DNA from: Chloroflexota bacterium
GTDB lineage: Bacteria > Chloroflexota > Dehalococcoidia > UBA2979
NCBI GenBank assembly: GCA_026713865.1
Contig: JAPONQ010000067.1
Location: 1 to 64,000, forward strand
Reading direction: 5' to 3'
DNA: 64,000 nucleotides
Position 1 is the stretch's first letter; every line of letters begins with the position of its first letter. The notes below the pieces were generated by a model. The model did no database searches. It was given only the letters and a program-made list of their open reading frames with translations, and had not been told where the DNA came from. Positions 1 through 938 of this stretch are shown in pieces. A program made the position numbers and the translations under genes.

Positions 1-829
1 CCCCGCCGGTCACGGCTCCCGCCTCTGCCAGCAGGCGCGCATGCGGGAGCAAAGGCACCTCGGCCGCCTCGATCACGAGCCGGGCCCCGCTCGCCTCCGC
101 CATCTCCGATGCGTGCCCGGCGAGGCCGAAGCCGGTGACGTCGGTGACGGCGTGCGCGCCGGCCTCGCGCGCGAGGCGTGAGGCCTCCCGGTTGAGCCGG
201 ATCATCGACTCGGTCGCGGCCTCGAGCGCCGGCTCGTGTCCCGCGATGCCGCTCTGCGCCGCCGTCAGCACCACGCCGGTCCCCACCGGCTTGGTGAGCA
301 GCAGCGCGTCACCCGGCCGCGCGCCCTGCACGCGCAGCACGGCGTCGGGATGCACGAGGCCCAGCACGGCGAGGCCGTACTTGGGCTCCTCGTCGAGGAT
401 CGTATGGCCGCCGGCGACGACGGCGCCGGCCTCCGCCACCGCCTCCGCGCCGCCGCGGAAGACCTCGGCCGGAATCGCCGGGTCCATTCCCTCCGGGAAG
501 CCAGCGATGTTCAGGCAGAGGCGGGCCTCCGCGCCCATCGCGTAGACATCGGACAGGGCGTTCGCGGCGGCGATGCGGCCGTAGAGGTAGGGGTCGTCGA
601 GCACCGGGGGAAAGAAGTCCAGCGTCTGCACAACCGCGAGATCGTCGGAGATGCGGTAGACGGCGGCGTCGTCGCCGTCTTCGAGCCCGACGAGCACGTC
701 GGGGTGCTCCCCCGGCGGAAAGAGCTGGTGCAGGGGGCGCAGGACCTGCGCCAGGGTCGCCGGACCCATTTTCCCCGCTCAGCCAGCGCAGGAGGCGAGC
801 GACGTCAGCCGAATCTGATCGCGGGTCAC
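1..829 (-). CDS. selD: Selenophosphate synthase SelD, selenocysteine-containing, C-terminus beyond window
   Basis: SelD makes selenophosphate from selenide and ATP for selenocysteine and selenouridine synthesis. Reading leftward from a GTG at 829 (GGAAG ribosome site 8 bases upstream), the protein opens with RLTSLASCAG, then an in-frame TGA at 781-779, then AGKMGP. This aligns with the SelD active-site loop, where E. coli has Cys17 followed by Lys20; here the TGA is codon 17 and Lys is codon 20. The frame then runs open to the window edge with typical SelD blocks: DDAAVY, TLDFFPPVLDDPY, GRIAAANALSDVYAMGA, GGHTILDEEPKYGLAV, LTKPVGTGV and TDVTGFGLAGH. Selenocysteine at this position is known in other SelDs. 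An in-frame ATG at 862 is an alternative start. Automated callers would begin the gene at the ATG at 769 and lose the active site. Confidence 0.93.
736..781 (-). promoter_or_regulatory. Candidate bacterial SECIS element downstream of the selD TGA
   Basis: Immediately after the TGA (781-779) the mRNA can form two hairpins inside the coding sequence. The first is GGGTC-CGGC-GACCC (767-754). The second is a 7-bp perfect stem, GGCGCAG / CTGCGCC, with a three-base GTC loop (752-736). The loops start 17 and 34 bases after the TGA, and each has a G among its first two loop bases. Both properties fit the general description of bacterial SECIS elements that bind SelB. Which hairpin is used is not determined. 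Confidence 0.6.
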
Positions 830-938
830 GGGCCACTCTTCCGTTCGCACGACGGCGCCCATGGTCGCACCGCCGGCGGGCGCTGCCTAGTCATGGCCGG
901 CCAACGGGCGCCCGCGGTACGGCGCGGGGCGTCCGCGC

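Follow-up and report, generated by a model that had tools for sequence, protein, structure and literature searches.

A selD gene with an in-frame TGA at its catalytic codon, a very probable selenoprotein gene in a Chloroflexota bacterium

The selD gene at the start of the window (the whole stretch of 64,000 nucleotides analysed here, which starts from the first base of contig C67) encodes, with high confidence, a selenoprotein that carries selenocysteine (Sec) at UGA codon 17. The case is well founded but ordinary, since selenoprotein genes of this well-known type are seen in many bacteria. Sec-containing SelD has long been known and is widespread (PMC13188914, PMC4561486, PMC1794560), and among prokaryotic selenoprotein families it is described as the second most widespread (PMC13188914). 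A report from 2015 describes SECIS elements in Sec-selD genes (PMC4561486), and the change from Sec to Cys in SelD has been documented (PMC13188914). No paper centred on Chloroflexota selenoproteins was found in a literature search that was not exhaustive. The present gene indicates that this Chloroflexota family uses Sec, and it is one in which a standard gene call would leave a selenium enzyme without its active site.

The selD gene, its TGA codon and the Sec machinery

The coding sequence (positions 2–829, minus strand) is partial and comprises 276 codons from a GTG at 829 to the contig end, with one internal TGA at 779–781. As stated in the preliminary description, the minus-strand frame of the ATG at 769 continues upstream through this single TGA (781–779) into RLTSLASCAG, and from there to the GTG at 829 and further. 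The residues around the TGA, RLTSLASCAG-U-AGKMGPATLAQVLRPL, correspond to the N-terminus of SelD, and translation from the GTG with TGA read as Sec gives MTRDQIRLTSLASCAGUAGKMGPATLAQVLRPL... Counted from this GTG, the TGA is codon 17 and the conserved Lys is codon 20, which agrees with the numbering given earlier. In several relatives, an ATG occupies the aligned position (xMTREE versus PVTRDQ), which supports the use of the GTG as the start codon.

The predicted product scored 327.7 bits against the SelD model TIGR00476 (cut-off 125) over positions 1–269 of 311, with one TGA inside. Thus, the score exceeds the curated family cut-off despite the missing C-terminus. The Pfam domains AIRS (PF00586) and AIRS_C (PF02769) were both identified. 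An alignment to E. coli SelD (PDB 3u0o), as had been proposed, was gapless and placed the TGA on Cys17 and the AAA codon at 770–772 (minus strand) on the catalytic Lys20, a residue that is K in every selD row examined. The N-terminal loop thus holds both the catalytic Cys/Sec position and the Lys three residues on by which SelD is recognized, and the in-frame TGA is aligned with the Cys of homologues, as in other bacterial selenoproteins. A TGC at 788–790 (minus strand) encodes Cys14, which together with the Sec makes up a CxxU motif (CAGU). A CxxU or CxxC motif is present in most rows of the family, as CAGU or CGGU in the Sec rows and as CAGC in the Cys rows.

The draft genome amounts to 2.52 Mb in 119 contigs and is 92.7% complete. 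The gene runs off contig C67 at base 1, where its 3' end is absent, and the C-terminus of SelD (TIGR00476 model positions 262–310) was located at the extreme end of contig C14. The earlier description of the remainder of the gene as intact thus holds for the part present and not for the gene as a whole, which is cut by the contig boundary. The end of C14 that bears the 3' end of selD (L020:1630–1752) contains a poly-C run and a repeated stretch of 100 bases, which look like an assembly artefact at the point where C67 and C14 are separated.

The selA, selB and selC genes that had been predicted from this selD gene were all found elsewhere in the genome: selA on contig C88 (534.8 bits; cut-off 267.9), selB on C84 (293.2 bits; cut-off 242.25), with SelB-specific winged-helix domains, and tRNA-Sec at C17:41996–42088 (71.8 bits), called by ARAGORN as tRNA-SeC with anticodon TCA. 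The three genes thus occur together in one genome, as is expected of bacteria that make selenoproteins. Neither of the two observations named beforehand as contrary to this reading was made: selB and tRNA-Sec are both present, and the codon at 781–779, rather than TGT or TGC, is TGA also in an independently assembled congener. A tRNA-Sec gene (L009:1501–1597) is closely followed downstream by an open frame at about 1800–2480, which has Cys codons and whose translation resembles a low-molecular-weight phosphatase/arsenate reductase (CTHNAGRSQMAAGWL).

The comparison covered 44 genomes from this order, which all belong to one family, and selD was found in 33 of them. Exactly one internal TGA was present in 25 of these genes and none in the other eight, and the catalytic codon was TGA or TGC in all family rows read. 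Among 80 other loci, this codon was TGC in 43, TGA in 31 and TGT in six, and the same TGA was also observed in distant Sec-SelDs. The nearest public relative (L022, Chloroflexi MAG SB0675_bin_30) is 87% identical and has the same TGA; genome G039, from the same genus, encodes a SelD identical to that of L022.

The selB gene scored above the cut-off in 20 of 25 genomes with Sec-SelD, in all eight with Cys-SelD and in four of the 11 without SelD, and tRNA-Sec was found in 20, seven and four genomes of these groups, respectively. Among the SelD-less genomes, the four with selB and the four with tRNA-Sec coincide (G005, G020, G031 and G033), so that selD is probably only missing from these assemblies. 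Genomes G004, G007, G008, G009, G012, G013 and G016 contained neither selD, selB nor tRNA-Sec, and G004 and G009 are 96–97% complete, suggesting a probable true loss of the Sec trait.

Hairpins downstream of the TGA and alternative readings

Two hairpins are predicted on the minus strand past the TGA. Hairpin 1 (positions 754–767; GGGUC-CGGC-GACCC) starts 11 nt past the TGA codon and has a folding energy of -6.7 kcal/mol, while hairpin 2 (positions 736–752; GGCGCAG-GUC-CUGCGCC) has 7 bp, an apical loop at 745–743 and an energy of -11.3 kcal/mol. The limits described for bacterial SECIS elements (bSECIS) are an apical loop of 3–9 nt with a G in the first two positions, a stem of 4–16 bp, a minimum free energy of at most -7.5 kcal/mol and a distance of 16–37 nt from the UGA (PMC13188914). 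Hairpin 2, with its 3 nt loop GUC at 33 nt from the UGA, is within all of these limits; hairpin 1 taken alone fails the energy limit.

A plain fold of the 50 nt past the TGA was uninformative in this GC-rich DNA (z = 0.26 against dinucleotide shuffles), and we therefore relied on conservation and synonymous-recoding tests. In the 22 distinct Sec rows of the family, 94.5% of the pairs in hairpin 1 and 96.1% of those in hairpin 2 were formed, as compared to 55.7% (sd 3.6) and 60.5% (sd 3.1) under synonymous recoding, a control that treats related sequences as independent and whose figures are not exact probabilities. The eight Cys rows formed 47.5% of the pairs in hairpin 1 and 60.7% in hairpin 2, and the hairpins were complete in none of them. 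A Sec row (L123) and a Cys row (L115) with the common peptide KMGLGTLA illustrate the difference, with a paired stem GGT...ACC in the former versus an unpaired GGG...ACG in the latter. In a 34-row alignment that includes distant Sec-SelDs, changes on both sides were observed at nine of 12 pairs, including five of the seven pairs in hairpin 2. None of 500 shuffles reached the observed values, and slid versions fell to 31–53% paired. Outside the family, hairpin 2 was kept (90.8%) and hairpin 1 not clearly so (58.6% versus 49.0%). A scan of positions 600–1000 against Rfam gave chance-level matches only, with no curated family over the hairpins.

In the Sec genes, both hairpins are thus preserved to a greater extent than the encoded protein demands, and they are lost in the Cys relatives. 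Hairpin 2 is probably the SECIS element to which SelB binds, and hairpin 1 is a possible clade-specific accessory stem. The chances are about even that selD in this Chloroflexota family carries a tandem recoding signal, in which the canonical SECIS (hairpin 2) is joined by hairpin 1 as a conserved stem closer to the UGA, which is selected in its own right and was dismantled by silent changes when the Sec codon gave way to Cys.

It is extremely improbable that selD is a pseudogene, with the TGA introduced by nonsense mutation or by an assembly error into what is otherwise a plain Cys-SelD gene. The position of the gene at a contig edge in a fragmented draft genome would fit such an error, as would the suspicious poly-C run and duplication at the end of the partner contig, but this reading is refuted by conservation: since a separately assembled congener (L022/G039) and 25 of 33 selD genes in the family share the TGA at the same codon, it represents neither decay nor a sequencing error. 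Moreover, the frame past the TGA shows good conservation and stays open over all 259 codons up to the contig edge, and the hairpins are kept only in the TGA forms. The preliminary description was thus right to consider decay unlikely.

A start at the ATG at 767–769 (minus strand), giving a SelD-like protein that lacks Sec and is shortened at its N-terminus, has almost no probability either. This ATG is where a mechanical ORF call starts, just as had been anticipated for gene callers, and the resulting frame of 256 codons, open at the contig end, has lost the active site. Both the catalytic residue and Lys20 would be lost from such a protein, although the conserved N-terminus of SelD is encoded directly ahead of the TGA; we therefore consider the ATG to encode an internal Met. 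Conservation alone cannot name the residue inserted at the UGA, which might be read as another amino acid (e.g. Trp, by a code change or suppression). No support for such decoding was found, and it is made exceedingly unlikely by the presence of selA, selB and tRNA-Sec, by the alternation of TGA with TGC at this site among relatives and by the SECIS-like hairpin.

With the UGA read as Sec, the ribosome would start at GTG 829 and reach the UGA at codon 17, where SelB with Sec-tRNA-Sec, bound to the SECIS hairpin at 752–736, would insert Sec. The Sec, placed in the substrate loop at the SelD N-terminus (CAGU followed by Lys20), would take up reduced selenium, SelD would make selenophosphate from ATP, and SelA would use the selenophosphate for Sec-tRNA-Sec. 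Because SelA needs selenophosphate for this step, SelD would require its own product for its own synthesis. For Sec insertion, SelB binding and catalysis, we infer these roles from established knowledge of the pathway.

Sec and Cys forms of SelD and other candidate selenoproteins

The Cys-SelD loci L115, L117, L124, L127, L129, L130, L132 and L103 belong to genomes G024, G022, G023, G017, G021, G014, G015 and G018, respectively. A SelD tree was computed with the Sec column masked. All Cys rows but L103, seven in number and from g8 and g10, formed one clade (100/99), located beside the Sec rows of g16 (97/94) within a mostly Sec tree. Among the 45 rows, the well-supported branches require Sec and Cys to have been exchanged no fewer than four times. 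The nesting makes a change from Sec to Cys likely in the g8/g10 clade, although the direction is not proven by this midpoint-rooted tree. These seven Cys-SelDs are close to Sec forms in the tree, and their genomes contain selB (7/7) and tRNA-Sec (6/7), but they differ in having TGC at the catalytic codon and hairpins that are not formed.

Three of the eight AhpC/TSA-type genes in the genome have one in-frame TGA at the active-site position. These candidate Sec redoxins are L187 (G000:C2:2631–3026, minus strand; ARWUPFCRT, with WUPFC), L188 (C96:40098–40466, plus strand; AFTGGUEREM, with FTGGU) and L191 (C87:63404–63748, minus strand; HSSWUGCRED, with WUGC), and they are probable further selenoproteins. 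The redoxin of the C2 type (ARWUPFCRT) is TGA-bearing also in the Cys-SelD genomes G015, G021 and G023. A search for Sec-FdhA showed that the one molybdopterin protein in the genome is without TGA, and among the family genomes only G036 and G038 have molybdopterin genes with a TGA inside. Selenouridine synthase (TIGR03167), another possible use of SelD, was found in none of the 44 genomes. An all-against-all scan of the fetched loci for TGA/Cys pairs was dropped, as it was swamped by antisense reading frames.

According to a survey from 2006, every Sec-decoding organism without FdhA has Sec-SelD (PMC1794560). Several of the Cys-SelD genomes keep selB and tRNA-Sec and have no TGA in any listed molybdopterin gene. 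Within the limits set by genome completeness, they are an apparent exception to the rule from that survey that every selenoproteome includes Sec-FdhA or Sec-SelD, and Sec redoxins may be what holds the Sec trait in these members. We consider these relatives, which keep Sec decoding without a TGA-containing formate dehydrogenase, and the clade-specific first hairpin to be mildly interesting. With selD as Sec, as Cys or absent among close relatives, the family is a compact natural experiment and can be used for tracing the change from Sec to Cys and the decay of the SECIS element.

Comparison with known SelD proteins

The product resembles E. coli SelD (Cys17, Lys20; PDB 3u0o) in fold family, in the aligned active site and in residue numbers. 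The E. coli protein differs in having Cys in place of Sec, and no SECIS is needed for its synthesis. The closer counterparts are the Sec-containing bacterial SelDs (TIGR00476), such as that of Aquifex aeolicus (PDB 2yye/2zod). The likeness to these extends to the family and domain order, the Sec at the catalytic loop position with Lys three residues on, the SECIS directly downstream and selA, selB and selC in the genome. The present SelD differs from such proteins in replacing a lone Sec by a CxxU motif, which was reported for approximately 5.6% of the single-domain Sec-SelDs in ocean data (PMC2398784), and in the second, upstream hairpin that is conserved in the family.
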